A DNA stretch of 64,000 nucleotides, from positions 310,001-374,000 of the forward strand of contig NZ_JACGWT010000003.1 of NCBI RefSeq assembly GCF_014137855.1. Direction: 5' to 3'. Positions 16,706 through 58,760 of this stretch are shown one piece after another; positions within the stretch are counted from its first letter, which is position 1; each line of letters starts with the position of its first letter. This DNA comes from Microlunatus kandeliicorticis. Its GTDB lineage: Bacteria > Actinomycetota > Actinomycetes > Propionibacteriales > Propionibacteriaceae. The position numbers were made by a program, and so were the translations under genes. The notes beneath the pieces are model-generated. The model saw nothing but the letters and a program-made list of their open reading frames with translations. It did no database searches and had not been told where the DNA came from.

Positions 16706-16865
16706 GCCGAGCCTGTCGAGGGGCGTCGAGCCACGGTGCCCTGAGCCCGTCGCAGGGCACGCCACTCGCGCTTCGACAAGCTCAGCGCACGGACTGGAGA
16801 ACGGTGCCCTGAGCCTGTTCGAAGGGCGATGAACCACGTGCCCTGAGCCTGTCGAAGGGCAGAGC
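16706..16865. repeat. REP-like palindromic element cluster 1 (convergent junction DUF427/CNNM)
   Basis: At least four palindromic units lie here: GCCCT...AGGGC at 16738-16758, GCGCT...AGCGC at 16768-16788, and GCCCT...AGGGC at 16806-16827 and 16840-16860. A degenerate fifth starts at about 16709. Each has a core of about 11 nt, GAGCCTGTCGA or its complement. The stem varies while remaining self-complementary. No gene is seen in the region. Confidence 0.85.
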
Positions 16866-17918
16866 TCAGGCGGTGGTGGTCGCCGGACCCGCCTGGTCGC
16901 GGATCTCGCCGACCAGCCGCTCGAGGACGTCCTCCAGCATCACCACCCCGGTCACCTCCCCGCGGACGTCGGCCACCCGGGCCACGTGCGCGCCGCGGCG
17001 TTGCATGATCTGCAGCGCCTCGGCCAGCGAGGCGCGGCCGGGGACCGTGGCCAGCGGGCGGATCCGCTTCTCGGGGACCGGCGTCGTCCGGGCGGTCTCG
17101 TCGACCTCGAGCACGTCCTTGAGGTGCAGATAGCCGCTGAGCTCGCCGTCCTCGGCGCGGACCGGGAACCGCGACCAGCCGGTCCGGGCCGACAGCTGCT
17201 CGACCTCGGCCGGGGTCACCCCCCGGGCCACGGTGACCAGCGACTCCGGGTCGAGCTGCACCGAGGTGGCGGTGCTGCTCTCGAACTGCAGCGCACCGGT
17301 GAGCAGCCCGTACTCGTGCTCGTCGAGGACGCCCTCGCGCCGGGACTCCTCGACCATCCCGGCGACCTCCTCCTGGGTGAAGGTCGAGCCGACCTCGTCC
17401 TTGGGCTCCACCCGGAACAGCCGCATCGCCGTGTTGGCCACCGCGTTGAGCGCGACCACCACCGGCTTGACCACGATCACCACCACCCGCATGAACGGGC
17501 CGAGCACCAGCGCGGCGCGCTCGGGACCGACCAGCGCGAGGTTCTTCGGCACCATCTCGCCGAGCACGACGTGCGCCCACACCACCAGCGCGGTGGCCAG
17601 CACCAGCGCGATCGGGTGGACGAACGACTCCGGCACCCCGGCCGCGGCGAACAGCGGCTCGATGGCGTGCGCGATCACCGGTTCGGAGACCGCGCCGAGC
17701 GCCAGCGTGCAGACGGTGATGCCGAGCTGGGCGGCCGCCATCACCTGGCTGACCTCCTCCATCGCCTTGAGCGTCGACCGCGCCCGGCGCGATCCCCGCT
17801 CGGCGAGTGGTTCGATCCGCGCCCGGCGGGCCGAGACCAGCGCGAACTCCGAGCCGACGAACAGCGCGTTGAGCGCGAGCAGCACGACGGTCAGCAGCAG
17901 GCCGAGGACCCCGTTCAC
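16866..17918 (-). CDS. CNNM/CBS-domain membrane protein (hemolysin C-like family)
   Basis: This 350-residue protein has an N-terminal DUF21/CNNM domain with 3-4 helices (LLLTVVLLALNALFVGSEFALVSARR, broken by the E of GSEFA), the motif VLGEMVPKNLAL, and then a CBS pair (about residues 205-340). No C-terminal CorC/HlyC domain is present. CNNM proteins are thought to export or sense divalent cations such as Mg2+ or Co2+. The GTG start overlaps the upstream CNNM gene by 4 bp, so the two probably form one membrane complex. Confidence 0.88.
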   Translation of the reverse strand: MNGVLGLLLTVVLLALNALFVGSEFALVSARRARIEPLAERGSRRARSTLKAMEEVSQVMAAAQLGITVCTLALGAVSEPVIAHAIEPLFAAAGVPESFVHPIALVLATALVVWAHVVLGEMVPKNLALVGPERAALVLGPFMRVVVIVVKPVVVALNAVANTAMRLFRVEPKDEVGSTFTQEEVAGMVEESRREGVLDEHEYGLLTGALQFESSTATSVQLDPESLVTVARGVTPAEVEQLSARTGWSRFPVRAEDGELSGYLHLKDVLEVDETARTTPVPEKRIRPLATVPGRASLAEALQIMQRRGAHVARVADVRGEVTGVVMLEDVLERLVGEIRDQAGPATTTA

Positions 17919-19453
17919 GACCGGCTCCCCTCGCCGGCGCGGCCGGTTCGGTCCGACGCGCCGAGCCGTCCCGCGGCCGCGGGCTCCCGCTCCGCGGTCC
18001 GGCCGGCACGGTGGCCGGCGGTGTGGTCGACGGTGTGGTCGACGGTGTGGTCGGCACGGTCGTGGTGGCGGTCACCGCGACGCCCGGAGGCCTCGGGGGC
18101 CTCCTCGACCAGCACGCCCACCCGGTCGAGCCGGCGACGGTCCAGGCGCTCGGCCCGCAACCGCACGGCGACCTCGATCCGGGCCGGTTCGTCGGGGTCC
18201 GGGTCCGGGATGGTGCCGGTGAGCCGGACCTCGTCTCCCACGGCCGGCAACCGCCCGAGCCGCTCGGTGAACAACCCGGCGATGGTGTCGGAGTGCTCGC
18301 CGTCGGGCAGCCGGACCCCGGTGTGGGCGCCGATCTCGTCCGGGCGGAGCAGTCCGGAGACGCTCCAGCCGCCCTCGGGAAGCAGGCGGATCGAGGCGAT
18401 CACCCGGTCGTGCTCGTCGGCGATCTCGCCGACGATCTCCTCGACCAGGTCCTCCAGCGTGACGATGCCGTGGGTGCCGCCGTACTCGTCGACCACCAGT
18501 GCCATCTGCAGCCCCTGCTGGCGGAGGACCGCAAGCAGCGGGTCCAGCTCCATCGTGTCGGGCACCAGCGTCGGCGGGACCGCGAGCTCGGCCACGGTGA
18601 CCTCGGCCCGACGTTCGGCAGGGACGGCGACCGCTGCCTTGACGTGGGCGATGCCGATCACGTCGTCGTGCCCGGTGCCGGCCACCGGGAACCGGGAGTA
18701 GCCGGTGGACCGGGTCAGCGCGATCAGGTCGGCGGCGGTGTCGGTGCCCTCGGCGAACCGGACCTTCACCCGCGGCACGCAGACGTCGGCTGCGGTCCGG
18801 TCGCCGAAGGCGATGCTGCGGTCGAGGAGGGTGGCCGTGGTCTCCTGCAGTGCGCCCTCGACCGCCGAGCGGCGGACCAGCGACTGCAGCTCGTCGGGCG
18901 TCCGGGTCGAGCGCAGCTCCTCCTGCGGCTCGACGCCCAGGCCGCGGAGGATCGCGTTGGCGGCACCGTTGAGGAACCGGATCGGCCAGGCCATCACCGC
19001 GGTGAACGCCCGCATCGCCCGCTGGGTGGCGCGGGCGGTCTGCAACGGCAGGGCGATGGCGAAGTTCTTGGGGATCAGCTCGCCGAGCAGCATCGTGACC
19101 AGGGTGCTCACCACCAGCGCGACCGCGATGGCGATCCCCGAGACCGCCGTCGGGTCGAGCACCCCGATCGACGAGAGGGCGGGTTCGAGCAGCGAGGCGA
19201 GCGCCGGTTCCGACAGGTAGCCGATCACCAGGTTGGTCAGGGTGATCCCGAGCTGGGCCCCGCTGAGCTGGGTGGAGAGCGACCGGAGCCCGGCGAGCAG
19301 TCCCTCGGACGCACGGTCACCGTCGCGGGCGGCCCGCTCGACCACCCCGCGATCGACGGTCACGAACGAGAACTCCGCGGCCACGAACACACCGCAGGCC
19401 AGCATGAGCAGGACGGAGACGCCGAGCAGCACGAACTCGGTGAGCAAGGCCAC
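17915..19453 (-). CDS. CNNM/CBS/CorC_HlyC membrane protein with His-Asp repeat tail
   Basis: This 512-residue protein has the CNNM domain (GAQLGITLTNLVIGYLSEPA, LLGELIPKNFAI), a CBS pair with VDEYGGTHGIVTLEDLVEEI, and a CorC_HlyC domain. The last ~75 residues are low-complexity, including DHTVDHTVDHTAGH, encoded by a 15-bp tandem repeat near 18015-18060. A tail of His/Asp residues on a divalent-cation protein suggests metal binding, which is inference. The listed GTG has AGGA directly against it; an in-frame TTG at 19447 is spaced 5 nt from AGGAG and may be the true start. Confidence 0.9.
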   Translation of the reverse strand: MALLTEFVLLGVSVLLMLACGVFVAAEFSFVTVDRGVVERAARDGDRASEGLLAGLRSLSTQLSGAQLGITLTNLVIGYLSEPALASLLEPALSSIGVLDPTAVSGIAIAVALVVSTLVTMLLGELIPKNFAIALPLQTARATQRAMRAFTAVMAWPIRFLNGAANAILRGLGVEPQEELRSTRTPDELQSLVRRSAVEGALQETTATLLDRSIAFGDRTAADVCVPRVKVRFAEGTDTAADLIALTRSTGYSRFPVAGTGHDDVIGIAHVKAAVAVPAERRAEVTVAELAVPPTLVPDTMELDPLLAVLRQQGLQMALVVDEYGGTHGIVTLEDLVEEIVGEIADEHDRVIASIRLLPEGGWSVSGLLRPDEIGAHTGVRLPDGEHSDTIAGLFTERLGRLPAVGDEVRLTGTIPDPDPDEPARIEVAVRLRAERLDRRRLDRVGVLVEEAPEASGRRGDRHHDRADHTVDHTVDHTAGHRAGRTAEREPAAAGRLGASDRTGRAGEGSRS

Positions 19454-19532
19454 TCCTGGACGTGGTCTCGACGACGGGTGAGCGAAGGAGTCTAGCCGGG
19501 CCGGGCGGCCGCCCCGACTGTCCGAGGCGGGG

Positions 19533-20180
19533 TCAGCGGTCGAGGCTGGTGCACACGCAGACCTTGTTGCCGTCCGGGTCGGCCAGCACGGTGTACGACG
19601 GCGCCCCGGAGTCGTCGACCACCGTCCCGCCGGCAGCCAGCGCCGCAGCGATCCGGCTCTGCGCCGTCTCCGGAGCGACCCAGAGGTCCGGGTGCCAGCG
19701 CTGTCGTGGCGTTTCGTGCGGCTCGGTGCCCTGGAACCACACGTTGGCCACCCGGTTCGTCGGGTCGAGCACGTTGTTGCCGATCGTCGCGGAGGCGTCG
19801 CCGGTCATCAGCGCGGCCCAGAACGGTCCGATCCGCTCCCAGTCGTCGGTGTCGAGGCCGTACTCGACCTGCGCGACCTCGCCGGGCGCCGGCACCAAAC
19901 CGAGCCCCGCCGCGATCTCGCTGATCCGCCGGGCCAGGTCGAGATCGGCGGCGGTGACCCAGATCCCGCCCTCGCGGGTGGCCACCGCGAGGTCCGCGAA
20001 GCCGGCGCCGAGCCGGATCTCCGGCGGGTGGTGATCGCCGACCGCCTCGGCCACCACCACCGCGAAGCGGGCCCCGGTGTCGAGGTCGGGGATCCGGAAC
20101 CGGGCGTGCAGCGCCTGGCCGAGTTTGCGCCAGTCGGCGAGTCCGGCGGCGGCGACCTCGGTGTTGCTCAGCGTGTCCAT
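19533..20180 (-). CDS. Fusion of pterin-4a-carbinolamine dehydratase-like and glyoxalase-like (VOC) domains
   Basis: This 215-residue protein has two parts. Residues ~10-95 resemble a pterin carbinolamine dehydratase: LADWRKLGQALHARFRIPDL, then DHHPPEI, then TAADLDLARRISEIA. Residues ~100-213 form a glyoxalase-like VOC domain ending in SYTVLADPDGNKVCVCT. The usual dehydratase histidine pair of the HHP motif is kept, but the later TH of that fold reads TR. The enzyme activity is unknown. CAGGGT lies 6 nt before the ATG at 20180, suggesting a leaderless transcript. Confidence 0.8.
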   Translation of the reverse strand: MDTLSNTEVAAAGLADWRKLGQALHARFRIPDLDTGARFAVVVAEAVGDHHPPEIRLGAGFADLAVATREGGIWVTAADLDLARRISEIAAGLGLVPAPGEVAQVEYGLDTDDWERIGPFWAALMTGDASATIGNNVLDPTNRVANVWFQGTEPHETPRQRWHPDLWVAPETAQSRIAAALAAGGTVVDDSGAPSYTVLADPDGNKVCVCTSLDR

Positions 20181-20247
20181 GACGACACCCTGCCGCGGCC
20201 GTCCGACAGTTTCCGTCCGGCCGACGGGTTCGGATCCGGACAGCGGA

Positions 20248-21402
20248 TCAGGAACGAAGCCGGCCGGGCAGCCGCGGCAGCGCCGACCCGACGGCGACCG
20301 CGGTCAGCCCGGGCGGCAGCGTCCGCGCCATCCGGGCCATCGCCGCGAGCGTCCCCGCCGGATCGGTCCGCTCGGAGAGATAGGCGCGCTGACGGTCGAG
20401 CGGGAGGGCGAAGAAGGCGGCGAAGAACTGCTCGACCCCGGCGTGCGGCAGGCGGAGCAGCGTCGTCAGCCCGATCTCGCGGAGCCGCTGCACCTGGCGG
20501 GCCCGCGCCGGCCAGAGCACCGACCAGACGTCCCGCCCGGCCGCGACCGCGCCGGCGAGCTCGTCCGCCAGCCGCAGCCCGAGCGCGACGCTGTAGCCGG
20601 TCGCCGGGTGCATCAGCCCCGCGCGGGCCCCGAGCGGGACCGGCCGGTCGGTCGGCGCCTCGCGCGCGGGGCGGGCCGCCTCCGGGTCCGGCTCGACGCT
20701 GAACCGCACCCGCTCGACCCGCTCGGTGCCGTCGAGGCTCACCCCGCGGGCGGCCAGCCGCCGTTCGAGCCGACGCTGCAGCTCGCCCAGTCCGAGGGCC
20801 GGGCGCCCCACCAGGCAGGTCTCCTCGAGCAGCGTCCGACCCTCGCCGAGCGGGACGGCGTAGAGGAACGAGGGCGGGGCACCGTCCCCCGCGCCGTGGT
20901 CGGCCCGCCAGTCCATGAACCAGGGGCCACTGGCCGCCGCGGCGCGCTCGTCGGGCAGCACCAGCCCGTACGCGGTCTGCGCGGCCCGCTCGGTGCTCGG
21001 CCGGGACCCGCGGGCGTCGAGGACGAGATCGGCGGTCAGGGTCTCGCCGGTGTTGAGCTCGACGGTGTGCGCGTCGGCCCGCAGCGCGGTGGCGGTGACG
21101 ACGTCGACGGCACGGACGTCGAGCGTCTTCTGCAGGCCGACGGTGTCGAGCACCACGTAGGCCCGGTCGAGGACGTGCTCCCGGCCGGCCCAGGCGTGCG
21201 GACGCGGGGTGCGGGTGGCCACCACCTGCGGCGGGAGCCAGTCCGGGAGCTCGTCCTCCCAGGCTGCGTAGGTGGGCGTCCAGCGTCGGTCCGGGTTCGG
21301 ATCGACCGCCACCACCGGGACTCCGACCGTTGCCAGCCGGTGCGCGACCGAACGGCCCGCCGGTCCGAGACCGAGGACGACGACCTGCGCGTGCCGGGTC
21401 AC
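20248..21402 (-). CDS. crtL: Lycopene cyclase, CrtL type
   Basis: This 384-residue FAD-dependent cyclase would convert lycopene end groups to beta-rings. It starts with a dinucleotide fold (VVVLGLGPAGRSVAHRL). CrtL hallmarks follow: TYAAWEDELP, FMDWRADHG, SFLYAVPLGEGRTLLEET and MHPATGYSVALGLRLADEL. No phytoene synthase, desaturase or other carotenoid gene is in the window, so it is an orphan here. The GTG at 21402 was chosen because TACCCT stands 6 nt upstream (leaderless). A GTG at 21423 is possible but lacks a signal. Confidence 0.85.
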   Translation of the reverse strand: MTRHAQVVVLGLGPAGRSVAHRLATVGVPVVAVDPNPDRRWTPTYAAWEDELPDWLPPQVVATRTPRPHAWAGREHVLDRAYVVLDTVGLQKTLDVRAVDVVTATALRADAHTVELNTGETLTADLVLDARGSRPSTERAAQTAYGLVLPDERAAAASGPWFMDWRADHGAGDGAPPSFLYAVPLGEGRTLLEETCLVGRPALGLGELQRRLERRLAARGVSLDGTERVERVRFSVEPDPEAARPAREAPTDRPVPLGARAGLMHPATGYSVALGLRLADELAGAVAAGRDVWSVLWPARARQVQRLREIGLTTLLRLPHAGVEQFFAAFFALPLDRQRAYLSERTDPAGTLAAMARMARTLPPGLTAVAVGSALPRLPGRLRS

Positions 21403-21548
21403 GTCGGCAGGGTACGGGTACACCGAAGCCGCCGGCCCGGACTGCCGGACCGGACTGTCGGACCCGGCTGCCAGGCTGGCGCACGGGCCGACGGACCAGC
21501 CGCGGCACCAGGACGAGGCCGAGCCGGCACGACGAGCGGAGGACGACG

Positions 21549-21986
21549 ATGACGACGGACCCGACGAGCGAGGGCGGTGGCCGCTACCCGCAGCTGCTGC
21601 ACACCGTCCTCGACACCACGGACGCGCGAGGGCTGGCCGAGTTCTACCGACGGTTCCTCGGGCTGCGCTACCGGTCCGGCGACGAGCCGCCGACCGACCG
21701 CGAGGACGACGCCGACTGGCTGGTGCTGACCGACGGCGCCGGCGGCAACCTGCTCGCCTTTCAGCAGACCGAGGAGGTGACGCCGAGCACCTGGCCGTCG
21801 GCGCAGGTCCCGATGCAGCTGCACCTCGACCTGACCGTGCCGGACGTCGCCGAGCTGGAGCGTCAGCACGCGCGGGCGCTGGAGCTCGGGGCCACCGAGC
21901 TGCTGGACCGGACCGACGACGCCGACGAGCCGCTGTGGGTGTTCGCCGACCCGGCCGGGCACCCCTTCTGCGTCTTCGTCGGCTGA
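21549..21986 (+). CDS. VOC family protein (glyoxalase/dioxygenase fold)
   Basis: This 145-residue protein has two beta-alpha-beta-beta-beta modules: LHTVLDTTDARGLAEFYRRFLG at the start (split by a loop), and LHLDLTVPDVAELERQ with WVFADPAGHPFCVFV at the end. Metal-ligand positions H18 and the H of QLHLDL are plausible, but the substrate is unknown. GGAGGACG lies about 6 nt before the ATG. It converges with the epimerase gene 16 bp downstream. It is a different subfamily from the VOC half of the fusion gene at 19533. Confidence 0.82.
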   Translation: MTTDPTSEGGGRYPQLLHTVLDTTDARGLAEFYRRFLGLRYRSGDEPPTDREDDADWLVLTDGAGGNLLAFQQTEEVTPSTWPSAQVPMQLHLDLTVPDVAELERQHARALELGATELLDRTDDADEPLWVFADPAGHPFCVFVG

Positions 21987-22002
21987 CCGCCGCGGGCTCG
22001 GG

Positions 22003-22920
22003 TCAGGGGGTGGCGACCGGGGCGGCGTCGAGGGTGAACCGTGGCGCGTAGCCGAGCCGGGTCCGCGCCCGGTCGATCGACAGCAGCGGCGCGCGCCCGG
22101 GCAGTGGTGCGGTGAGGTGCGGGGCGAGGTCGGGCCGGTAGCGCCGGACCAGGTCGAGCGTCGGCTCGGGCGCGCAGGTGTCGGCGGCGGCCAGCACGAT
22201 CGGCTCCGGGGTCACCACCGCCGCCTCGGCGGCGGCCACGATCCCGGCGCTGACGTCGCGGACGTGCACCCACTGCCAGAGGTCGTCGGCCCAGCCGGTG
22301 CTCGCGGGCAGCCCGTCGGTGAGCAGCCGGTCGTAGCGCTGCTCGGGCCACACTCCGGCGAAGCGGAGCGGCAGCGTCTCGAGACCGAACGCGCGGTGGA
22401 AGGTCGCCGCCACCAGCTCGCCGGTCAGCTTGCTCAGCGAGTACGGGTCTTCGGGGACGGCCGGCTCGTCCTCGGTGAGCGGGAGCGCCCGCCGGACCGG
22501 GCTGAGCCCGGAGACCCGCCAGAAGAAGGTGCCGAACGCGTTGATGCTGGAGGCGCTGACCACCCGGCGGACGCCGGCCCGGACCGCGGCGCGGTGGATG
22601 TTGAAGGTGCCGACGACGTTGGTGGCGATGGTCTCCTCGGCGGTTTCCCAGTCCCCGGTGGGCTTGCCGGCCAGGTGGACGACGACGTCGACCCCGGCGA
22701 GCGCGGCGCGGAGTCCGTCCTCGTCGGCCAGCGCGGTCCGGTGGTAGGGCCACGGGGTCCGGAGCGGCGAGACGCTCCGTCCGCCGGGCGCCTCAGGGTC
22801 GAAGACGGTGGCCTGCTCGGGGTCGGCCTGGTCGAGCAGCACCAGCTCGTGCCGGTCGCCGAGCAGCTCGGCGACGTAACGGCCGAGCCAGCCGGCCGCC
22901 CCGGTGATCATGATCTTCAC
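22003..22920 (-). CDS. NAD-dependent epimerase/dehydratase (extended SDR)
   Basis: This 305-residue extended short-chain dehydrogenase has the nucleotide motif TGAAGWLG at the N-terminus, the DVVVHLAGKP strand and an active-site YSLSK (Tyr/Lys). An upstream serine lies in SASSINAFG. It probably acts on a sugar nucleotide or sugar acid; the precise substrate is not evident. The start is a GTG with GGGGAG upstream that overlaps the dehydrogenase stop by 4 bp (GTGA), so the two enzymes probably act in one short pathway. Confidence 0.87.
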   Translation of the reverse strand: MKIMITGAAGWLGRYVAELLGDRHELVLLDQADPEQATVFDPEAPGGRSVSPLRTPWPYHRTALADEDGLRAALAGVDVVVHLAGKPTGDWETAEETIATNVVGTFNIHRAAVRAGVRRVVSASSINAFGTFFWRVSGLSPVRRALPLTEDEPAVPEDPYSLSKLTGELVAATFHRAFGLETLPLRFAGVWPEQRYDRLLTDGLPASTGWADDLWQWVHVRDVSAGIVAAAEAAVVTPEPIVLAAADTCAPEPTLDLVRRYRPDLAPHLTAPLPGRAPLLSIDRARTRLGYAPRFTLDAAPVATP

Positions 22921-23987: not shown

Positions 23988-24108
23988 CGGATGATCATGG
24001 AAGCCGCATCCTGCGCGCGCAAGGGTTCGGGCGCGCTTCTGAGAGCGATCGTGGGGTCGTGGCCGGGTTCCCGATGAGTCCCGGCCGCCGGTGAGGTCGG
24101 ATGGTTTC

Positions 24109-24954
24109 GTGACCGACACCGCCACCGACCCCGCCACCGCGCGCCGGATGTTCGACCTGCTCGAGCCGATCTGCCTGGTGACCTACATGGCCCACGAGTC
24201 CGACGACGCGCTGCGTGCGCTCGGGCACCGGACCTACTGGGACGGCTACTTCGCCGGGCGCGCCTTCCCGTTGGGCCGGGTGCCGGCCGAGGTCGTGCAC
24301 GCCACCTTCTACAGCTTCGCGCCGGGCGAGGCCGCCCGGCACATCCCCAGCGCCTGGGAGACGGTGCCGCCCGAGACCTCGTTCGCGGCCTGGGAGAACG
24401 GCAGCGCGGCGTCGGTGCGGCGGATCCTGGGTTCCGAGCTCGTCGCCTCGGCCGGGCTGGCGCGGGCCAACGCGTTGATCATGAAGGCGGCCCTCGCCGC
24501 CCCGACCAACGGACGGCCGCTGTTCGCCGGCTGGCGGTCGCTGCCGGTGCCGGAGGACCCGGCGACCCGGCTGTGGCACGGGGCGACGATGCTCCGCGAG
24601 CACCGCGGCGACGGCCACGTGGCCGCGCTGCTCACCCACGGCGTCGGTGGCGCGGAGGCCCACGCGCTGGCGGCCCTGGCCTCCGGGATCCACCCGGCCA
24701 CCTCGTTCGGACGACTTCACCACCTGCCGAAGATGTATCTCGACTCGGTGATGGACGGTCTGCGCGACCGCGGCCTGGTGGACGCCGACGGCTACCTGAC
24801 CGACGCGGGCACCGAGATCAAACGCCGGGTCGAGCAGGTCACCGACGAACTGGCCTGGCCGCCCTACGCCGCACTCACACCCGCCGAACGGGGCGAGCTG
24901 ATCAGCTGCCTCGAGCCGCTGACCGCGCGGATGGTCGCCTCCGGCTCGCGCTGA
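24109..24954 (+). CDS. SCO6745-family protein
   Basis: This 281-residue actinobacterial protein has no assigned function. It shows the family start RRMFDLLEPICLVTYMAHES and a long helical middle (GSELVASAGLARANALIMKAA, broken by a turn). The C-terminal third looks like a winged helix (GLVDADGYLTDAGTEIKRRV), resembling a MarR-type domain. The GTG at 24109 was preferred; an in-frame GTG at 24091 would add six residues. It stands alone, divergent from the dehydrogenase-epimerase pair and convergent with ychF. Confidence 0.8.
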   Translation: MTDTATDPATARRMFDLLEPICLVTYMAHESDDALRALGHRTYWDGYFAGRAFPLGRVPAEVVHATFYSFAPGEAARHIPSAWETVPPETSFAAWENGSAASVRRILGSELVASAGLARANALIMKAALAAPTNGRPLFAGWRSLPVPEDPATRLWHGATMLREHRGDGHVAALLTHGVGGAEAHALAALASGIHPATSFGRLHHLPKMYLDSVMDGLRDRGLVDADGYLTDAGTEIKRRVEQVTDELAWPPYAALTPAERGELISCLEPLTARMVASGSR

Positions 24955-24988
24955 CCGGTCGGATGGACGAGCCGGTCGCCGTGCTGTC

Positions 24989-29100: not shown

Positions 29101-29320
29101 TGCCCGAGACGTGCGCTGAGCCTGTTGTCGAAGCGCCCCAAGACGCTCTTCGACAGGCTCAGAGCGCCTCAAGGGGGCAAGCTCAGGGCACCGTGATCGG
29201 CGAGCGGCCCGAGAGGTGCGCTGAGCTTGTCGAAGCGCTTGCTTACCACCCTTCGACAGACTCAGGGCACCGCGATCAGCGAGCGGCCCGAGACGTGCGC
29301 TGAGCCTGTCGAAGCGCCGC
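29101..29320. repeat. REP-like palindromic element cluster 2 (convergent junction rmuC/ispH)
   Basis: The 319-bp gap between rmuC and ispH holds five palindromic units. They are GCGCT...AGCGC at 29113-29136 (with a 3-nt insertion in the core), GCTCT...AGAGC at 29145-29165, GCGCT...AGCGC at 29218-29237 and 29297-29317, and CCCT...AGGG at 29249-29267. The GCTCT/AGAGC pair is a third stem variant that keeps pairing. A ~38-bp block at 29189-29226 is repeated at 29268-29305, so part of the cluster arose by a 79-bp duplication. I see no gene. Confidence 0.85.
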
Positions 29321-31720: not shown

Positions 31721-31981
31721 ATGGCGACCAAGAAGACCGCGGACACCACCGCCGAGAACGACGACGCCGCTGGGGCCGACGACGAGCTCGCCGGACTGAG
31801 CTACGAGCAGGCGCGCGAGGAGCTGCTCCGGGTGGTCCAGCAGCTCGAGTCGGGCGGTGCGCCGCTGGCCGAGTCGCTCGCCCTCTGGGAGCGCGGCGAA
31901 AGACTGGCCACCCTGTGCCAGCAGTGGCTCGACGGTGCGCGGGCCAAGGTCGAGGCCGCGGGCGAGAAGCGCGGGAGCTGA
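31721..31981 (+). CDS. xseB: Exodeoxyribonuclease VII small subunit
   Basis: This 86-residue helical subunit binds XseA. The family core is SYEQAREELLRVVQQLESGG, then PLAESLALWERGERLATLCQ. A ~25-residue acidic lead precedes it. TGAGGACC lies just before the ATG, overlapping the xseA stop, so the subunits are coupled. A cluster of six REP-like units follows. Confidence 0.94.
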   Translation: MATKKTADTTAENDDAAGADDELAGLSYEQAREELLRVVQQLESGGAPLAESLALWERGERLATLCQQWLDGARAKVEAAGEKRGS

Positions 31982-31995: not shown

Positions 31996-32182
31996 GCGCT
32001 TCGGCAGGCTCAGCGCACGCCCCCCAGCGCTTCGACAGGCTCAGCGCACGTTCTGCAGTGCCACTCAGCGCTTCGACAGGCTCAGCGGACGGTTCCACTT
32101 CGACACGCTCAGCGCACGTCCTGCGGCGCTTCGACGGGCTCAGCGCACGTCCCGCCCCACACTTCGACGGGCTCGGCGCACG
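31996..32182. repeat. REP-like element cluster 3, six direct copies (convergent junction xseB/glxA)
   Basis: Six near-identical 24-bp units related to GCGCTTCGACAGGCTCAG lie in the same orientation at 31996, 32027, 32068, 32095, 32126 and 32159. Spacers of 3-17 bp differ in sequence. A degenerate seventh follows at about 32190. Each unit can pair GCGCT with AGCGC. The 233-bp gap contains no gene. Confidence 0.9.
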
Positions 32183-32214: not shown

Positions 32215-33186
32215 TCAGGCGGACCGGACGGCGAAACGGCGGCGGTAGTCGACCGGGGCGACCCCGACCTGACGACGGAAGTGGTCGCGGAGGACGACCG
32301 CGGAGTTGAACCCGACGGTGTCGGCCACCTGCTCGATCCCGAGGTCGGTCTCCTCGAGCAGCCGGCGGGCCTGGAGCACCCGCTGCTGGGTCAGCCACTT
32401 GTGCGGAGTCGTCCCGGTCTCGGCGGCGAACCGGCGGGCGAAGGTCCGCTCGCTCATCATCGCCCGGCGGGCGAGGCTGGCCGCGGTGTGCTCCTCGGCC
32501 AGGTGGTCGACCAGCCAGGTCAACAGGTCGGCCAGACTGTCCGCCCGGCACTCGGGCAGCGGCGTCGGGACGAACTGCGCCTGACCGCCGTCCCGCTGCG
32601 GCGGCACCACCATCCGCCGGGCGATCCGCACCGCGATCTCCGAGCCGAGCTCGCGCCGGACCAGGTGCAGCGCGGCGTCGATCCCGGCCGCGGTCCCCGC
32701 GCTGGTGACGATGTCGCCGTCGTCGACGAAGAGCACGTCGCCGTCCACCTCGACCTCGGGGAAACGCCGGCGCATCGCGTCGACGTACATCCAGTGCGTG
32801 GTGCACCGCCGGCCGTCGAGCAGGCCGGCCGCGCCGAGCACGAACGAGCCCGAGCACAGCGAGAGGATGGTCGCGCCCGCGGCATGGGCCGACCGCAGCG
32901 CGTCGAGCACCTCGCCCGGGTAGTCGTCGTCCGAGCGGATCGGCGTGGCGGCCACGATCACCAGGTCCGACCCCGCCACGCCGTCGAGACCGTGGCTGGC
33001 CTGGATGGCGAACGGCGCCAGCGACTTGGCCTGGAGCGGACGGCTCGGGTCGAGTGCGCAGACCCGGAAGTCGAGATCGGGGATGCCGTCCTCGGGGCGG
33101 GTGATCCCGAAGACCTCGACGGCGACGCTGAACTCGAAGACGGCGACCGGCTCGACCAGCACCACGCTCACGACTCGGAGACTCAC
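32215..33186 (-). CDS. GlxA-family transcriptional regulator (DJ-1/PfpI domain plus AraC HTH)
   Basis: This 323-residue regulator has an N-terminal DJ-1/PfpI-like sensor with the nucleophile-elbow-like LSLCSGSFVLGAAGLLDGR (Cys kept) and TSAGTAAGIDAALHL. Its C-terminal AraC DNA-binding domain carries SLARRAMMSERTFARRFAAE and GIEQVADTVGFNSAVVLRDH. Members often control amine or amide catabolism, but no such genes are adjacent. The GTG at 33186 has TAGGCT 6 nt upstream (leaderless). GTGGCAGGA repeats between it and the divergent small gene are candidate binding sites. Confidence 0.9.
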   Translation of the reverse strand: MSLRVVSVVLVEPVAVFEFSVAVEVFGITRPEDGIPDLDFRVCALDPSRPLQAKSLAPFAIQASHGLDGVAGSDLVIVAATPIRSDDDYPGEVLDALRSAHAAGATILSLCSGSFVLGAAGLLDGRRCTTHWMYVDAMRRRFPEVEVDGDVLFVDDGDIVTSAGTAAGIDAALHLVRRELGSEIAVRIARRMVVPPQRDGGQAQFVPTPLPECRADSLADLLTWLVDHLAEEHTAASLARRAMMSERTFARRFAAETGTTPHKWLTQQRVLQARRLLEETDLGIEQVADTVGFNSAVVLRDHFRRQVGVAPVDYRRRFAVRSA

Positions 33187-38974: not shown

Positions 38975-39035
38975 GCGCTTCGACAGGCCAAGCGCGCTTC
39001 GACAGGCTCAGCGCACGGGCTCAGCGCACGGGCTC
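38975..39035. repeat. REP-like element cluster 4 (convergent junction fumC/transglycosylase)
   Basis: Two units, GCGCTTCGACAGGCCAAGCGC (38975-38995 region; its first 20 nt match the family) and a full copy at 38994-39014, share the AGCGC boundary. A 13-bp tandem duplication of GCGCACGGGCTCA follows. The cores match the clusters at 16.7, 29.1 and 32.0 kb. Confidence 0.85.
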
Positions 39036-39041: not shown

Positions 39042-39749
39042 TTAGTACCAGCCGTTGGCGCTCTTGAACGCCCACCCACCGCAGGGGGTGCCGTAGCGGT
39101 CCTTGAGGTAGGACAGGCCCCAGGTGATCTGGGTCGCGGGGTTGGTCTGCCAGTCGGGGCCGGCCGAGGCCATCTTCGACCCGGGCAGTGCCTGCGGGAT
39201 GCCGTAGGCGCCGGACGCCGCGTTGGTGGCGTTCACGTCCCACATGCTCTCGCGCATGATGATGTTGTTGAAGCAGGCGAACTGGTCCGACCCCCAGCCG
39301 TACTTGTTCTGCATGATCTGACGGGCGATCGAGCGCGGGTCGGTGGTGCCGGGCAGGTAGCCCTGCTGCTTGATCAGCGCGGCCCGGCGTGCAGCCGCCG
39401 CCTTGGCCTTGGCCTCGGCGGCCTTCTTCTTGGCCGCCGCCTCGGCCGCCTTCTTCTTGGCCGCGGCGAGCTGGTCGACCACCTGCTGCTGGCGCGCGCT
39501 GGCGTAGACCTGCTTGTCGTCCGCGGCCGCCGCCTGCGGGTCGACCGAGAGCGCGAGACGGGTGGCGTCACGCGAGGTGTCACCGATCCGCGACGCCGCG
39601 TCGCCGATCGGCGCGGTAGCGCCGGGCGGCGGCGCGACCGGCGGCGTGGCGTTCGCCGAGGACCCGCTCAGGACGGTCCCGATCACCGCGGTGGCGGTCA
39701 CCGCGGACAGGCTCGTACCGATCAGGGCGTGTTTGAGGATTCGACGCAC
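39042..39749 (-). CDS. Secreted transglycosylase-like (SLT/aggregation-promoting-factor C-terminal type) protein
   Basis: This 235-residue exported protein has a signal peptide (HALIGTSLSAVTATAVIGTV, ending SANA) and a ~60-residue Ala/Lys coiled coil with repeated AAKKKAAEA. The C-terminal lytic-transglycosylase-like domain shows QIMQNKYGWGSDQFACFNNI, IIMRESMWDVNATN and SGAYGIPQALPGSKM. It probably cleaves or binds peptidoglycan outside the cell. The GTG at 39749 has CAGGGT 6 nt upstream, which could be a -10 or a weak ribosome-binding site. AT-rich DNA lies further upstream (39780-39830). Confidence 0.85.
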   Translation of the reverse strand: MRRILKHALIGTSLSAVTATAVIGTVLSGSSANATPPVAPPPGATAPIGDAASRIGDTSRDATRLALSVDPQAAAADDKQVYASARQQQVVDQLAAAKKKAAEAAAKKKAAEAKAKAAAARRAALIKQQGYLPGTTDPRSIARQIMQNKYGWGSDQFACFNNIIMRESMWDVNATNAASGAYGIPQALPGSKMASAGPDWQTNPATQITWGLSYLKDRYGTPCGGWAFKSANGWY

Positions 39750-48791: not shown

Positions 48792-48797
48792 GGCTGC

Positions 48798-51490: not shown

Positions 51491-51532
51491 TTGCATGCAT
51501 CACACAAACAAAAATATGCTTGCGGCATGCAA
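51491..51532 (+). promoter_or_regulatory. marR promoter and operator
   Basis: The -35 TTGCAT (51491-51496), an 18-bp spacer and the -10 TATGCT (51515-51520) place the transcript start at the ATG at 51527. A perfect 8-bp inverted repeat, TTGCATGC (51491-51498) and GCATGCAA (51525-51532), covers the -35 and the start point. The local AT content is far above the surrounding DNA. Confidence 0.8.
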
Positions 51533-53805: not shown

Positions 53806-53829
53806 GACCGACGCCCTCGTCAGGGCTGG

Positions 53830-53881
53830 CCGGCGGGCGCCGTGACCGAATCGTGAGCGAATTCGGTCCGGCGCCCGCCGG
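53830..53881 (+). terminator. Terminator of the marR-MFS operon
   Basis: CCGGCGGGCGCCG...GACCGAAT (53830-53851) pairs with ATTCGGTC...CGGCGCCCGCCGG (53861-53881), a 21-bp stem with one bulged base and a 9-nt loop. GTTTT follows at once. It lies 25 bp after the MFS stop. Confidence 0.85.
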
Positions 53882-54100
53882 TTTTCGGCAACCAAAAGCC
53901 CCGACGCGGCATCAGGAAGAACGAGAATGGGGTTCGAGCAATTCGCGATCGGGACGAAAGTCACCGATACTGGCATGACCCGCACGGCCGGCGGCAGCCG
54001 GGTCCGCGGTGGGTCGTGCCGGACTCGCTCAGCCTCAGGCGGTCCCGGACACCGGATCCGCTCCTCTCCGCAGATCCGCCACCCGATCGAAAGAGACACG
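53882..54100 (+). promoter_or_regulatory. Upstream region of the L,D-transpeptidase gene
   Basis: This ~219-bp spacer holds no gene with similarity. GATACT at 53966-53971 is the best -10 candidate, which would give a leader of roughly 120 nt before the ATG at 54101. AAAGAGA precedes that ATG as a weak ribosome-binding site. Confidence 0.35.
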
Positions 54101-55366
54101 ATGAAGCACCTGGTCAGGACCCCGATCACCCGAGGGCTCTCGGTCGCCGCCGTGCTCGGCCTGCTGGCCGTCGCCGGCTGCGGCAGCGTCCCCTCGCCGG
54201 GCCCCGACACCTCCGGTCAGGGCGGCACGACCAAGACCGGCACCACCACCGGCGGCGGCGGGTCGAACACCCCGAGCAGCACGCCGGAGGCGCCCGAGCC
54301 GGTCAGCTTCAGCACCAGCGTGGCCGACGGCGCGAAGAACGTGAAGGTCTCCTCGATCGTCTCGGTGAAGGCGGCCAACGGCACGCTCGACTCCGTCCGG
54401 GTGAGCACGACCCAGAAGAGCGAGTCCGGCAGCACCAGCAAGGTCACCGTGGACGGCGCGCTCAACGCCGACAAGACCACCTGGACCGCCTCGGAGGCGC
54501 TCGACCCGGGCTCGACCTACACGATCCGGATGAGCGGCGCGAACAGCGAGGGCACGCAGCAGAGCAGCACGGCGACCTTCAAGACCCAGTCGCTGACCCT
54601 CGACGAGCAGACCTTCCCGACGGTGTTCCCCGGCAAGGGCACCACCGTCGGCGTCGGCATGCCGGTCATCCTGACCTTCGACGTCCCGGTCAAGGACCGC
54701 GCGAACGTCGAGAAGCACCTCGCGGTGACCACCAGCCCGAAGCAGACCGGCACCTGGCACTGGGTCAGCTCGACCGAGGTCCACTACCGGCCCAAGACCT
54801 ACTGGCAGCCGGGCACCAAGGTCAGCGTCGACGGCAACCTCAACGGGGTCAGCGCCGGCAACGGCGTCTACGGGCAGAAGTCGGTGGCCACCTCGTTCAC
54901 CATCGGCCGTTCGCAGATCACCAAGATCGACCTCAAGCGCGACGTGGCCAAGGTCTACCGCAACGGCAAGGCCGTCCGGACCATCTACGTCAGCGCCGGC
55001 AAGCCCGGTTGGGAGACCCGCAGCGGGATCAAGCTCATCATGAGCAAGGAGACCAACAAGCGGATGACCAACCAGATGATCGGCGCCGCCGAGGAGTACG
55101 ACCTCAACGTCGCCTACGCGCTGCGGATCACCAACTCGGGTGAGTTCCTGCACTCGGCGCCGTGGAACGCCGGCTACTTCGGCCGGGTCAACTCGAGCCA
55201 CGGCTGCACCGGCATGAGCACCGCGGACGCCCGCTGGCTGTACGAGACCTCGCTGATCGGCGACCCGACCGTCACCACCGGCACCAACCGCGGGATGGAG
55301 AAGGTCAACGGCTGGTCGGACTGGAACATCAGCTGGAACGACTACAAGGCCGGCTCCGCGCTCTGA
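54101..55366 (+). CDS. L,D-transpeptidase lipoprotein (LdtMt2-like)
   Basis: This 421-residue exported enzyme makes 3-3 crosslinks in peptidoglycan. The signal ends in the lipobox VAGC (Cys27), followed by a Gly/Thr/Ser-rich linker. Two Ig-like domains (about residues 65-155 and 160-280) precede the YkuD catalytic domain. His351 lies in HSAPWNAGYFG and the catalytic Cys369 in SSHGCTGMS. The layout matches mycobacterial LdtMt2. A 19-bp perfect hairpin follows the stop. Confidence 0.94.
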   Translation: MKHLVRTPITRGLSVAAVLGLLAVAGCGSVPSPGPDTSGQGGTTKTGTTTGGGGSNTPSSTPEAPEPVSFSTSVADGAKNVKVSSIVSVKAANGTLDSVRVSTTQKSESGSTSKVTVDGALNADKTTWTASEALDPGSTYTIRMSGANSEGTQQSSTATFKTQSLTLDEQTFPTVFPGKGTTVGVGMPVILTFDVPVKDRANVEKHLAVTTSPKQTGTWHWVSSTEVHYRPKTYWQPGTKVSVDGNLNGVSAGNGVYGQKSVATSFTIGRSQITKIDLKRDVAKVYRNGKAVRTIYVSAGKPGWETRSGIKLIMSKETNKRMTNQMIGAAEEYDLNVAYALRITNSGEFLHSAPWNAGYFGRVNSSHGCTGMSTADARWLYETSLIGDPTVTTGTNRGMEKVNGWSDWNISWNDYKAGSAL

Positions 55367-55395
55367 CCGGCGCCGCCGCACGCGCGGTCTGCTGA

Positions 55396-55436
55396 GCCGA
55401 ACGCCCCGGACTCCGACGGAGTCCGGGGCGTTCGGC
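55396..55436. terminator. Perfect 19-bp hairpin between ldt and the AI-2E permease gene (convergent)
   Basis: Arms 55396-55414 and 55418-55436 are perfectly complementary around a GAC loop. The hairpin sits 30 bp after the ldt stop and 18 bp before the end of the convergent gene, so it can end transcription from both sides. Confidence 0.9.
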
Positions 55437-55453
55437 GTCTGCGCGCGGCGCGG

Positions 55454-56593
55454 TCAGGTGTGCCGCGGGGCGGTGAGCTGACCGGCGGGTCCGGGCTCCC
55501 GGAGGATCCGCTCGACGAAGCTCTTGGTGAAGGCGAGCACCGGGACCGCGATCAGGGCCCCGACGATGCCGGCGATCACCACGCCGATGGCGATCGAGAG
55601 CAGCACGGCCAGCGGGTGCAGGTGCACAGCCCGGCCGAGCAGGAAGGGCTGCAGCAGGTGTCCCTCGACCTGCATCACCAGGATGATCACGCCGAGCATG
55701 ATCAGCGCCTGCACCCAGCCGAGCGCGACCAGCGCGACCAGCACGGTGAGGAAGCCCGAGACGAAGGCGCCGACCAGCGGGATGAAGGCACCGATGAACA
55801 CCAGGGCGGCCAGCGCCGGGGCCAGCGGGACACCGAGGATGAGCGCGCCGATCAGCACGCCGAGGGCGTCGACCAGCGCGACCAGGATGGTCGCGCGGAC
55901 GTAGTGGCCGAGCGCCTCCCAGCCGTGCCGGGCGGCCGCGTCGACCCGGCCGCGGGACCGCTCGGGGAAGAACTTCGTGACGAAGCGGAAGATGCCGCGG
56001 CCGTCGTAGAGGAAGTAGAACAGCGAGAAGATCATGATCGCGAAGCCGGCGAAGAAGTGCCCGACCTGCGACCCGACGTCGGCGGCGTAGGTGGTGATCG
56101 TCGACTGCGACTCCTTGAGGAACTGCGTCACCCGCGACGTGAGCTGCGAGGTCTGCCAGAGCTCGGGGTTGAGCTTGAGCGGACCGTTCTCGAGCCACCC
56201 GGTGAGCTTGGAGAAGCCCTGGGTCGCGCTGTTCACCAGGCTGTCCGACCCCGACACGATCTGGGTGATGATCAAGGTCAGCGCCCCCGCCACCACGGCG
56301 AACCCACCGATCACGGTGATCGCCACCGCCAGGCCGCGCGGCAGACCCCACTTCTTCAGCCGGTTGGTCACCGGGGAGAGCAGCGCGCAGAGCAGGACGG
56401 CGATGGCCAGCGGGATCGAGACCTCGGAGAGGTAGCCGAGCAGCCAGCCGACGCCGCCGACCAGCGCGGCGATCAGGAACAGCCGCCAGGTCCACCCGGC
56501 CCCGACCCGGAGGGCGAGCGGGATGTGGCGCTCGGCCTCGGCGGGTTCGCTGGCGGGAACGCTGCGCCGGGCGGCGCCGAGACGTGCGGGCAA
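55454..56593 (-). CDS. AI-2E family transporter (PerM/TqsA-like permease)
   Basis: This 379-residue membrane protein has about eight TM helices arranged in the family pattern. The N-terminal pair ends with [20 protein letters not shown], a long central loop follows, and the C-terminal group has [40 protein letters not shown] and the late [19 protein letters not shown]. The exported molecule is unknown; some members are ion antiporters. The TTG at 56593 was chosen because AGGAGG lies 7 nt upstream; an in-frame GTG at 56653 would add 20 residues. Confidence 0.88.
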
Positions 56594-56722
56594 GACGGGA
56601 CCTCCTGGAACCGGCAGACGACCAGACCGGCCCGAGACGGGGACGTCCCGCACCCGCTCCGGTCCGCCTACCGTACTGGAACCTGTGCGTCGTCTTGGTG
56701 AGGTGCGGGCCAGACTGGGCGC

Positions 56723-58000
56723 GTGATCCGCGCCCTGTCCACCCGTCTGCGTCGGGCGGACGGAGCCGAGCGACTGCCGCGCGAGGTGGGGGTGCTCGCC
56801 GTGGTCGCCTTCTGCGTCGCCGTCGGGTTCGGCGTGGTGGTGCCGGTGCTCCCGGTCTTCGCCCGCAGCTTCGGGGTGGACAACTTCGCGGTGGGAGCGG
56901 TCATCTCCGCCTTCGCCCTGATGCGGCTCTGCGCCAGCCCCTTCGTGGGCCGGCTGATCCGGGCCTGGGGCGAGCGGGTGGCGCTGGCGGTCGGCATCGG
57001 CATCGTCGCCCTGTCGAGCGGGCTGGCCGGTCTCGCTGCCACCTACCCGCAGCTGCTGGTGCTGCGCGGGATCGGCGGCATCGGGTCGGCGCTGTTCACC
57101 GTCTCGGCCACCAGCCTGCTGCTGGCGGCCGCTGGACCGGCCCGGCGCGGCCGGGCCGCCGGGCTGTTCCAGGGTGGGTTCTTAATCGGCGGGATGGCCG
57201 GGCCGGCGATCGGCGGGGTGCTGGCCGCGATCAGCCTGCGCGCGCCGTTCTTCTTCTACGCGGCCACCCTGGCCGTGGCCGGCGCCGTCGGGCTGGTCCT
57301 GCTGCGCTCCCCCGCCCGGCCGGCCGTCGACCCCGACGCGGTGGCCGGGATCCCGCAGCCCGAGGTCGACCGGACGGCCGTGCCGCTGCGCCGGATCGTC
57401 GCGGACCGCCGATTCCAGGCCGCCTGCCTGACCAACCTCGCCCAGGGCTGGACCTCGTTCGGCGTCCGCAGCGCGCTGGTGCCGGTGATAATCACCGAGG
57501 TGCTCGACCGCCCGGCCAGCTGGACCGGGATCGCCTTCGCCTGCGCCGCGGTGGTGCAGACGCTCGCGCTCTACCCGGCGGGGACGTTCGTCGACCGGGT
57601 CGGACGCCGGCCCGCGATGGTCGGTGCCGGGCTGCTGGCCGCCGTCTCGATCATGGCGGTCGCGCTGGCCCCGAACCTCACGGTCGCCGTGATCGCGCTG
57701 TGCGGCTACGGGGTGGCTGCCGCGTTCCTCGGCACCGCCCCGGCCGCCGCGGTCGGCGACGCCGGTGGCGCCCGGGGCGGCACCGCGGTCGCGGTGTTCT
57801 CGATGTGCTCGGACGCCGGGGCGATCGTCGGACCGCTGGTCGCCGGTGCGCTGGCCGACGCCGTGTCCTTCCCGGTGGCCTTCGGGGTCGGGGCGGCGCT
57901 GCTCGCGCTGGCCGCGCTCAACGCGCTGCGGATGCCCGGCGGGGTGCCCGGCGGCGGTCCGGCCCCGGCCACCGGGAGCACTACGGTGGCCCGGTCATGA
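56723..58000 (+). CDS. MFS transporter (12 TM)
   Basis: This 425-residue major facilitator protein has motif A in [20 protein letters not shown] and again in [20 protein letters not shown], and 12 hydrophobic segments. The substrate is unknown; the layout fits drug or sugar efflux. The GTG at 56723 is preceded by CAGACT with a 6-nt gap (leaderless). The stop overlaps the ung start (ATGA). Confidence 0.88.
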
Positions 58001-58719
58001 CCGAGCACCCCGATCGATCCCAGGCCATCTCCCCCGAACCGGCCGGACGCGAGCTGCCCGCCGACCTCAGCCCGGACTGGGCGGCCGCGCTCGCCCCGGT
58101 CCGCGACCGGATCGCCGCCCTGGGCGACTTCCTCCGGGCCGAGAACGCCGCCGGCCGCGGCTACCTGCCCGCCGGCGCCCAGGTGCTGCGGGCGTTCGCC
58201 CGGCCGCTGGCCGACGTCCGGGTGCTGGTGGTCGGCCAGGACCCCTACCCCACCCCCGGTCACCCGGTCGGGTTGTCGTTCTCGGTGGCCCCGGACGTCC
58301 GGCCGCTGCCACGGAGCCTGGTGAACATCTACACCGAGCTCGAGGCCGACCTCGGCATCCCGCCGGCGGTCACCGGCGACCTCACGCCGTGGTTCGAGCA
58401 GGGGGTGCTGCTGCTCAACCGGGTGCTCACCGTCCGGCCCGGCCAGCCCGCCTCGCACCGTGGCCGCGGCTGGGAGGAGGTCACCGCCTGCGCGATCGAG
58501 GCGCTGGTGGCCCGCGGTGGCCCGCTGGTCGCGGTGCTCTGGGGCCGGGACGCCCGCTCGCTGGCCCCCGTGCTCGGTGGCGTCCCGCGGATCGAGAGCG
58601 CCCACCCCTCACCGCTCTCGGCCCGCTCCGGCTTCTTCGGCTCGCGGCCGTTCAGCCGGGTCAACGACCTGCTGGTCGCCGCCGGCGCCGACCCGATCGA
58701 CTGGCGCCTCGAGCGCTGA
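57997..58719 (+). CDS. ung: Uracil-DNA glycosylase (family 1)
   Basis: This 240-residue enzyme removes uracil from DNA. The water-activating loop is [18 protein letters not shown]: the catalytic Asp is kept, while the usual His after DPY is Pro, as in other actinobacterial Ung. The leucine-loop motif HPSPLSA follows near the C-terminus with [15 protein letters not shown]. It overlaps the MFS gene by 4 bp; the pairing with a transporter looks accidental. A REP unit and a long palindrome lie downstream. Confidence 0.94.
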
Positions 58720-58739
58720 GCCGTCGCTGGGGCCCGGCC

Positions 58740-58760
58740 GCCCTGCGACACGCTCAGGGC
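58740..58760. repeat. REP-like element 5 (convergent junction ung/metB)
   Basis: GCCCT (58740-58744), an 11-nt core GCGACACGCTC and AGGGC (58756-58760) form the same palindrome as in the other clusters, with two core changes. It is a single copy 20 bp after the ung stop. Confidence 0.75.

Follow-up and report, generated by a model that had tools for sequence, protein, structure and literature searches.

The 64 000-nt stretch of the Microlunatus kandeliicorticis genome analysed here (contig NZ_JACGWT010000003.1, positions 310 001 to 374 000, forward strand; hereafter the window) carries clusters of a short palindrome resembling the repetitive extragenic palindromic (REP) sequences of other bacteria. 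We propose that these palindromes are non-autonomous, REP-like mobile elements that were probably dispersed by a cognate GIY-YIG nuclease, and that the mobile source of the repeats is most likely a small GIY-YIG gene bracketed by inverted copies of the hairpin. The unit itself is 25 nt long and consists of an unpaired 5′ tag, a covarying stem of 4–5 bp and a conserved GAGCYTGTCGA loop; its exact 13-mer core occurs 617 times in the 4.30 Mb of the genome, while the reversed-pattern control does not occur at all.

Small GIY-YIG genes lie between inverted copies of the hairpin

When genes near copies were screened in four genomes, 12 of 2079 had copies no more than 600 bp from both ends, and one of these encodes a 96-aa GIY-YIG protein. 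Searching the genus with PF01541 gave nine matches in small frames, of which eight were examined: two in this genome (G000; other G-numbers denote other genomes and L-numbers the loci examined) and one each in G002, G003, G010 (with one internal stop), G014, G017 and G018. All eight are bracketed as > gene <, with copies at most 450 bp away on both sides; the upstream copies lie on the + strand in 23 of 24 cases and the downstream copies on the − strand in 23 of 25. By the same 450 bp rule, copies on both sides were found for 12 of the 2061 called genes of four genomes, and the > gene < arrangement for only five of them, one being the GIY-YIG gene of G086; in the sample of the own genome the background is 0/1108 called genes. 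We used these 2061 genes as the control because the flanks of the long-frame GIY-YIG loci, 1.5 kb measured from the domain as for 18 UvrC-type loci, lie partly inside the gene; among these 22 loci, a weak control for this reason, two have one copy and none is bracketed.

The two GIY-YIG proteins of this genome, encoded at C3:511116 and C6:346275, match PF01541 with E = 1.9e-18 and 1.7e-17, and Y5, Y15, G17, R25, H29 and E62 are invariant in 11 aligned GIY-YIG proteins; the Y, R and E among them we take to be the catalytic residues of the domain. One of the two genes (L460) is flanked by copies with a CCCT stem and the other (L478) mainly by copies with a CGCT stem, plus two GGCT copies. As CGCT (97/185) and CCCT (62/185) are also the commonest stems of the genome, each stem sub-family appears to come with its own nuclease.

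The association extends to more distant genomes. Among 30 GIY-YIG loci from named genomes (one per genome, subfamily assigned by eye from the printed sequences), those of the subfamily found here, subfamily A, have a copy within 450 bp in 16 of 19 cases, 10 of them on both sides, and the other GIY-YIG loci in 0 of 11. Subfamily A was matched in 152 of 391 genomes of the order and in 37 of 50 further named genomes with the motif (weaker cross-matches counted). Of its 30 best loci in the order, six of which are genus or named loci already counted, 26 are flanked by an inverted repeat of 14 nt or longer (median 18), compared to 27/2061 called genes and 4/26 loci of Y1 transposases. Where few exact copies exist, the hairpin beside the gene has a different loop, as is predicted if nuclease and hairpin are cognate pairs. 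In family f1 the gene is present in 15 of 28 genomes with at least 30 copies and in 26 of 146 others (hand count; p = 1.5e-4 without phylogenetic correction).

Anatomy of the 25-nt unit

The unit was defined on 190 exact cores in 1.254 Mb (the window, which is C3:310001-374000 of G000, together with C3:190001-310000 and C1:1-1070000). Conservation spans only positions −9 to +15 approximately, i.e. an MCGY tag, a GC-N-CT stem, the GAGCYTGTCGA loop and an AG-N′-GC stem, and the sequence flanking it is unconserved. The tag occupies −9 to −6, with C in 80% and G in 94% at its two central places. The variable third pair (−3/+13) is Watson–Crick in 176 of the 190 copies as opposed to 83 in shuffles, which upholds the proposal of an earlier sequence-only reading of the window that pairing is maintained. 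The stems of other genomes and viral contigs are not covered by the scan pattern; of 101 distinct ones, 86, 87, 83 and 77 are Watson–Crick at pairs −1, −2, −3 and −4, respectively (expected: 70.5, 46.8, 34.9 and 32.0), and all four inner pairs thus covary across other genomes. Since the stem covaries, we argue for a folded unit rather than a DNA uptake sequence.

The common loop variants, both five-base (CCTGT, CTTGT, CCCGT, CTCGT, CTGGT) and six-base (CGAAGT, CTTAGT, CGTAGT), retain GAG-C..GT-CGA; the remaining variants occur 1–3 times each, as expected from permuted controls. From these patterns we infer that the loop would be closed rather than open, by tandem sheared G-A pairs, one G-C pair, a bulged T and finally a C-G pair that spans 2–3 bases. 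Standard folding of single hairpins gave the outer stem in seven of eight runs and a different fold in one. At L462, L499 and L506, copies are translated as part of protein tails or heads (SLSKG-like, or VIPAKAGIS for REPs with a CGTC tag), so that some small annotated open reading frames (ORFs) close to repeats may be spurious extensions.

Hairpin clusters in the window

The core GAGCCTGTCGA occurs 19 times in the window with at most one mismatch, whereas 100 dinucleotide shuffles gave a mean of 3.1 and a maximum of 7. Our gene calls, made with a home-made dicodon gene finder and consistent with Pfam hits for the genes flanking the clusters, yield 15 convergent junctions, the number the sequence-only reading had estimated, and its five clusters were all located, each between convergent genes (> and < denote copies on the + and − strand):

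16700..16860, both strands: cluster 1, five copies in the order >><>>
16700-16724, 16734-16758, 16802-16827 and 16836-16860, + strand: cluster 1 copies, mainly CCCT stem
16768-16792, − strand: cluster 1 copy, CGCT stem
16331-16699 (+) and 16866-17918 (−): DUF427 gene and CNNM/CBS gene flanking cluster 1
29109..29317, both strands: cluster 2, five copies in the order ><><>, with an RmuC-domain gene (+) on one side and a LYTB (ispH) gene (−) on the other
29109-29136 (3-nt insertion in the loop), 29214-29238 and 29293-29317, + strand: cluster 2 copies, all CGCT stem
29145-29169 (CTCT stem) and 29248-29272 (CCCT stem), − strand: cluster 2 copies
31996-32020, 32027-32051, 32068-32092 and 32126-32150, − strand: the four copies of cluster 3 (31996..32150), in one orientation, all CGCT stem; additional degenerate cores at 32100 and 32164
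31721-31981 (+) and 32215-33186 (−): flanks of cluster 3, the former an 86-aa ORF; the cluster also lies after an exonuclease VII large-subunit gene
38975-38999 (degenerate loop) and 38994-39018, − strand: cluster 4 copies, CGCT stem
38732 (+, gene end) and 39042-39749 (−): Lyase_1/FumaraseC_C gene and SLT-domain gene flanking cluster 4
58740-58764, − strand: cluster 5, a single copy with loop GAGCGTGTCGC, a perfect CCCT/AGGG stem and the tag CGGTG
57997-58719 (+) and 58979-60130 (−): UDG-superfamily gene and Cys/Met PLP enzyme gene flanking cluster 5

Counting copies with at most two loop mismatches and at least four of five stem pairs, all 17 family members fall in the five convergent gaps larger than 160 bp (gaps of 166, 319, 233, 309 and 259 bp with 5, 5, 4, 2 and 1 copies, respectively); the degenerate cores at 32100 and 32164 have too few stem pairs to count among the 17. 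By the same rule the other ten convergent junctions, with gaps of up to 102 bp, contain no copy, including those of 87 and 102 bp, for which the sequence-only reading had noted perfect hairpins. Three extra matches with two mismatches lie outside convergent junctions, all within called genes, and look like chance matches. An Rfam scan of the window gave no match at gathering scores.

Placement and stem types across the genome

In the 1.25 Mb sample we found 169 copies with at least four of five stem pairs: 134 between convergent genes, 30 between tandem genes, one at a divergent junction and four within called genes. The expectation that every wide convergent junction carries the family is correct for the window (5/5 above 160 bp) and not for the whole genome, where an exact-loop copy is present in 30 of 50 convergent gaps of at least 150 bp. 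Expressed as density, there are 5.46 copies per kb in convergent, 0.52 in tandem and 0.028 in divergent gaps. A weaker convergent preference is present in G009 (3.58, 1.74 and 0.22 per kb), Planctomonas G086 (6.05, 2.63 and 0.64) and Plantibacter G070 (4.98, 1.61 and 1.28); by count, 18 of 59 copies are convergent and 37 tandem in G009, 57 of 119 are convergent in G086 and 25 of 70 in G070. An exception to the convergent rule was seen in the genus mate G003 (L378, 1382-1434), which has an inverted pair in the gap from which lytB and xseA diverge. The idea of a REP-like family amplified at gene ends is supported by the 617 cores, which are nearly all extragenic, biased towards convergent sites and alternate in the manner of bacterial interspersed mosaic elements (BIMEs).

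Neighbouring copies at convergent sites show no bias in orientation (>> 31, >< 24, <> 21, << 17). Their stems, on the other hand, follow a rule: in a set of 185 copies obtained with a stricter definition, neighbours 18–75 bp apart have like stems in 60 of 61 cases when they share orientation, and in 1 of 52 cases (about 18 expected) when they do not. The matched stem types noted in the window do pair; rather than mutations compensated here and there, they represent sub-types that go with the orientation of a copy in its cluster. A separate nuclease for each sub-family would explain this rule. Like-stem inverted neighbours number 2/24 (6.7 expected) in named genomes with the CCGTTCG tag, 2/10 (2.8 expected) in named genomes with other tags, 1/26 (7.0 expected) in viral contigs, 3/17 (5.3 expected) in G009, 11/26 (14.9 expected) in Planctomonas and 6/16 (8.5 expected) in Plantibacter; the rule is strong in this genome and in the CCGTTCG set, and is not general. 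We also considered that unlike stems serve to force local hairpins, which is at most a partial explanation: folding with RNA parameters favours pairing between inverted copies anyway, though more weakly (mean of −37.9 kcal/mol for the >< pairs of this genome; in five sets of >< pairs with like stems, −49 to −64 kcal/mol).

Our data do not show bidirectional termination by the hairpins in this genome: orientation is unbiased and T is in weak excess just after the stem (17, 22, 21, 16 and 19%, compared to about 14% from base composition), without the U-tract of an intrinsic terminator. The suggestion of bidirectional terminators finds some footing in Sphingobium, where doublets have T-rich tails on both strands, each after its own hairpin.

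Spread of the family and comparison of sites

The hairpins of this genome are part of a repeat family found in many bacterial phyla. Among the matches listed for the loop pattern are Actinobacteria, Alpha-, Beta-, Gamma- and Deltaproteobacteria, Bacteroidetes, Chloroflexi and Cyanobacteria as well as Eremiobacterota, Armatimonadetes, Deferribacteres and Patescibacteria, and the pattern CNCTGAGCYTGTCGAAGNG occurs in both viral and genome contigs. In 43 named genomes with the motif, the 13-mer core is present in 1 to 536 copies (reversed-pattern controls: 0 to 2), and the tags vary by lineage (CCGTTCG, GTCA, CCTG, CGGT, CCTCA, CGTA and others). Within the genus, copies of the core family range from 0 to 651 among 20 genomes. 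Orthologous loci of the lytB region were located in 19 of these 20; G000, G002 and G014 carry copies at the rmuC-lytB junction, and G005, G006, G007, G013, G015 and G017 have none there.

Two junctions of Sphingobium sp. Tom strains, etfB-etfA and oxidoreductase, vary between strains by stretches of about 114 and 148 bp that contain elements. We rejected these as clean insertions since their flanks diverge, and call them allelic replacements rather than proven insertions. At another junction of these strains, between dimethylbenzimidazole synthase and hydrolase genes (L392, L398-L403), a >< doublet is kept in 7/7, with the stem types swapped left to right between four and three strains. In TomTYG74 (L394, around 24090-24240) a doublet is nested in a longer inverted repeat, TTAGAGCATNGTGCC...GGCACGATGCTCTAA, and 148 bp are absent from five sister strains; the longer repeat is perhaps a nested miniature inverted-repeat transposable element.

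Viral contigs with the motif (L106, L123, L137, L161 and others) share common gene families which by eye are structural genes of phages or gene transfer agents (GTAs); carriage by phages or GTAs would give copies a route between strains. Recurrent neighbours at 239 motif loci (L101-L339) were also considered as the partner and dismissed: the shared families are, by eye, phage structural genes, and this approach missed the GIY-YIG partner.

A second GIY-YIG subfamily often accompanies CGTC-tagged REPs

REPs with a CGTC tag, including the neisserial dRS3, are reported from many species, mostly at tandem and convergent sites (PMC3733652); they are described as having a CGTC tag, a stem of 8–9 bp starting with A/T pairs, a loop of 4–5 nt and a CCA tail, and were reported in 2013 to lack a dedicated transposase (Di Nocera 2013, PMC3733652). 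The family of this genome shows a different tag, stem, loop and tail. We found that a second subfamily of small GIY-YIG proteins, subfamily B, which end in WK..LI...NP.W.DL (alignment A2) and match 32 of 48 named genomes (weaker cross-matches counted), is often accompanied by CGTC-type hairpins. In named genomes these lie by both gene ends at L504, L506 and L508 (by eye). Of 40 subfamily-B loci of viral contigs (L548-L587), several of which are near-duplicates, 18 carry them on both sides, 10 on one and 12 on neither, compared to 0 of 24 loci of distant phage GIY-YIG genes and to 17 such hairpins in 1.13 Mb of other viral contigs. Of 34 matching GIY-YIG records in a plasmid collection seven were examined (L612-L618). 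In six of them CGTC-type hairpins, or an inverted repeat no shorter than 26 nt, enclose the gene: Novosphingobium aromaticivorans, Sinorhizobium meliloti, Neisseria gonorrhoeae (with repeats that look like dRS3), Azospirillum lipoferum, Sphingobium sp. TomMM7A and Rhizobium sp. CIAT894. In a Photobacterium record, the CGTC-type hairpins lie downstream of the gene only. Subfamily B is thus a possible candidate for the missing partner of the CGTC REP superfamily.

On the A. lipoferum plasmid AZO_p3 (L615) a small GIY-YIG gene lies between sufB and sufC, and on an S. paeninsulae plasmid (L619) another lies between rnc and era. Both neighbour pairs are usually tight operons, and such positions are as expected of mobile units.

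Proposed mechanism and alternative explanations

The autonomous unit would be a gene some 95 codons long, encoding a GIY-YIG nuclease with a single domain and lying inside inverted copies (> gene <). Two such units in this genome, one CCCT-flanked and one mainly CGCT-flanked, would seed the two sub-families; in the window there are dispersed copies only. The nuclease may recognise its cognate hairpin in single-stranded or extruded DNA and cut near the tag or the foot of the hairpin, after which replication or repair would copy the 25-nt unit, or an inverted doublet, to a new site; copying by cut and repair is our guess for a nuclease without known strand-transfer activity. Copies would survive chiefly between convergent genes, where promoters and coding sequence are spared, which needs only selection against damage to these; a terminator role may add to survival where T-tails exist, as in Sphingobium. 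Binding, cutting and copying or transposition, like any role in termination, are what we infer from the arrangement of the loci and by analogy: TnpA_REP is reported to bind single-stranded REPs via the tag, the irregular stem and sometimes the loop, and to cut beside the hairpin (PMC8266576). The features described here are comparable to those of its substrates, and we therefore propose that the GIY-YIG enzyme may do an analogous job. More broadly, and with moderate confidence, GIY-YIG nucleases may constitute a second enzyme class dispersing bacterial palindromic repeats, in which subfamily A would drive GAGC-loop hairpins across phyla and subfamily B the CGTC REPs including dRS3, each lineage co-evolving with its own hairpin and genomes with two nucleases building alternating two-stem arrays.

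Several observations weigh against dispersal by a cognate GIY-YIG nuclease. In the genus, 7 of 14 genomes with at least 33 copies lack a small GIY-YIG gene, among them the single-contig G009 with 434 copies; in an eighth genome, G010, the gene is broken, and the presence test at genus level reaches only p = 0.05. Two partial matches resembling subfamily A, at G017:C10 and G002:C1:3459541, were not among the loci examined. In family f1, 13 of the 28 copy-rich genomes lack the gene. The order-wide contrast is weak as well (16/31 copy-rich versus 136/360 other genomes, counted by hand), because in another family of the order many genomes have the gene and few exact copies. Three of the 19 subfamily-A loci in named genomes have no nearby copy, the subfamily-A gene of S. 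paeninsulae has no flanking hairpin, and the stem rule breaks down in Planctomonas and Plantibacter. Finally, a clean pair of empty and filled sites was not found at the junctions compared, the Sphingobium flanks diverging as well.

With half of the copy-rich genus genomes lacking the gene, and with homing endonucleases being a known kind of GIY-YIG enzyme, the gene might be a passenger or a homing endonuclease that landed in hairpin clusters amplified by other means. We regard this as unlikely: homing should split one element, yet whole inverted copies stand on both sides; the flanking hairpin changes with the nuclease group (pentaloop, hexaloop, GGTTGAGC-type, CGTC-type); and the two paralogues of this genome are each matched to one main stem type. 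Still less probable is that the hairpins are kept purely as bidirectional terminators or 3′-end protectors, by selection and not by mobility. A shared tag and loop with unconserved flanks indicate a copied unit, and the random orientation at convergent junctions, the weak T excess, the wide range of copy numbers within the genus and the presence of rmuC-lytB copies in some genomes and their absence from others are at odds with such a role, which would also leave the bracketing of the nuclease unexplained; the convergent bias with its single divergent copy and the T-rich tails on both strands of the Sphingobium doublets are the points that speak for it.

The REP-like anatomy (tag and hairpin, BIME-like alternation) would also fit classical REPs mobilised by a REP-associated tyrosine transposase (RAYT) that has since been lost, and 24 of the 43 named genomes with the motif have Y1 matches (19 have none). 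The Y1 partner that the sequence-only reading had suggested was, however, not encountered: PF01797 (Y1_Tnp) has no match in this genome and its 19 genus mates, with an E. coli positive control matched, nor in seven actinobacterial genomes among the 43, one of which is apparently the same as the genus mate G012; G012 and the named genome G067 (Microlunatus endophyticus) agree in GIY-YIG match coordinates and motif counts. Of 30 Y1 loci examined (from 57 matches in motif-bearing genomes), none is flanked by copies on both sides, and L347 has one copy at a distance of about 1.4 kb. A further ten Y1 loci, from the order, lack any exact copy. The tag is not of the GTAG kind either, as the 190 copies have the consensus MCGY and no GTAG/GTGG head. 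We consequently dismissed a RAYT partner, and its former presence seems very improbable. Dispersal by the bracketed GIY-YIG nuclease remains the explanation we prefer.

Significance and comparison with known systems

Palindromic repeats fill the intergenic DNA of many bacteria, and to our knowledge a partner enzyme has been assigned to the GTAG kind alone. Small GIY-YIG proteins carry the annotation ‘GIY-YIG nuclease family protein’, ‘excinuclease ABC subunit C’ or ‘hypothetical protein’ in the records examined. Should they move or maintain such repeats, a large orphan protein family would account for a large orphan class of repeats and vice versa, and the question could be put to the test using an enzyme of 95 residues and a hairpin of 25 nt. 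In an open-access library that lacks most subscription papers and all bioRxiv preprints, GIY-YIG was not found together with ‘REP sequences’ or dRS3; a Moraxella study alone combines GIY-YIG with ‘palindrom’ and ‘repetitive extragenic’, with one mention each. In a wider search of this library, no title among the matches listed concerned a link between GIY-YIG and repeats, and the loop sequence led to no related paper by title.

The closest known systems are the GTAG REPtrons, that is REPs and BIMEs with RAYT, described as having an unpaired tag and hairpin, high copy number, extragenic location, alternating orientation and a partner gene bracketed by inverted copies (PMC2817692). The family described here shares all of these features, whereas it has an MCGY tag (others elsewhere), a conserved loop and a GIY-YIG partner, with no Y1 enzyme found. 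BIMEs alternate two REP types, and the alternation of two types in opposite orientation is seen in this genome, though not in Planctomonas and Plantibacter. With the CGTC REPs (PMC3733652) the family has in common tagged hairpins in many species and bracketed GIY-YIG genes, of subfamily B in that case; the reported CGTC REPs differ in their tag, longer stem and 4–5 nt loop, and in the GIY-YIG subfamily. By sequence, the nuclease resembles the single-domain GIY-YIG proteins of the UPF0213 type (PDB 1zg2, 1ywl; E = 3.9e-11), and differs from them in a W-centred motif, [KQH][GR]W.R.K, not seen in either of the two as aligned, and in its position between hairpin repeats. GIY-YIG nucleases are further known to drive mobile elements as homing endonucleases and as the endonuclease of Penelope-like retroelements; in contrast to these, the elements described here are 25-nt hairpin repeats, and in the bracketed units examined we noticed neither an intron nor a reverse transcriptase.

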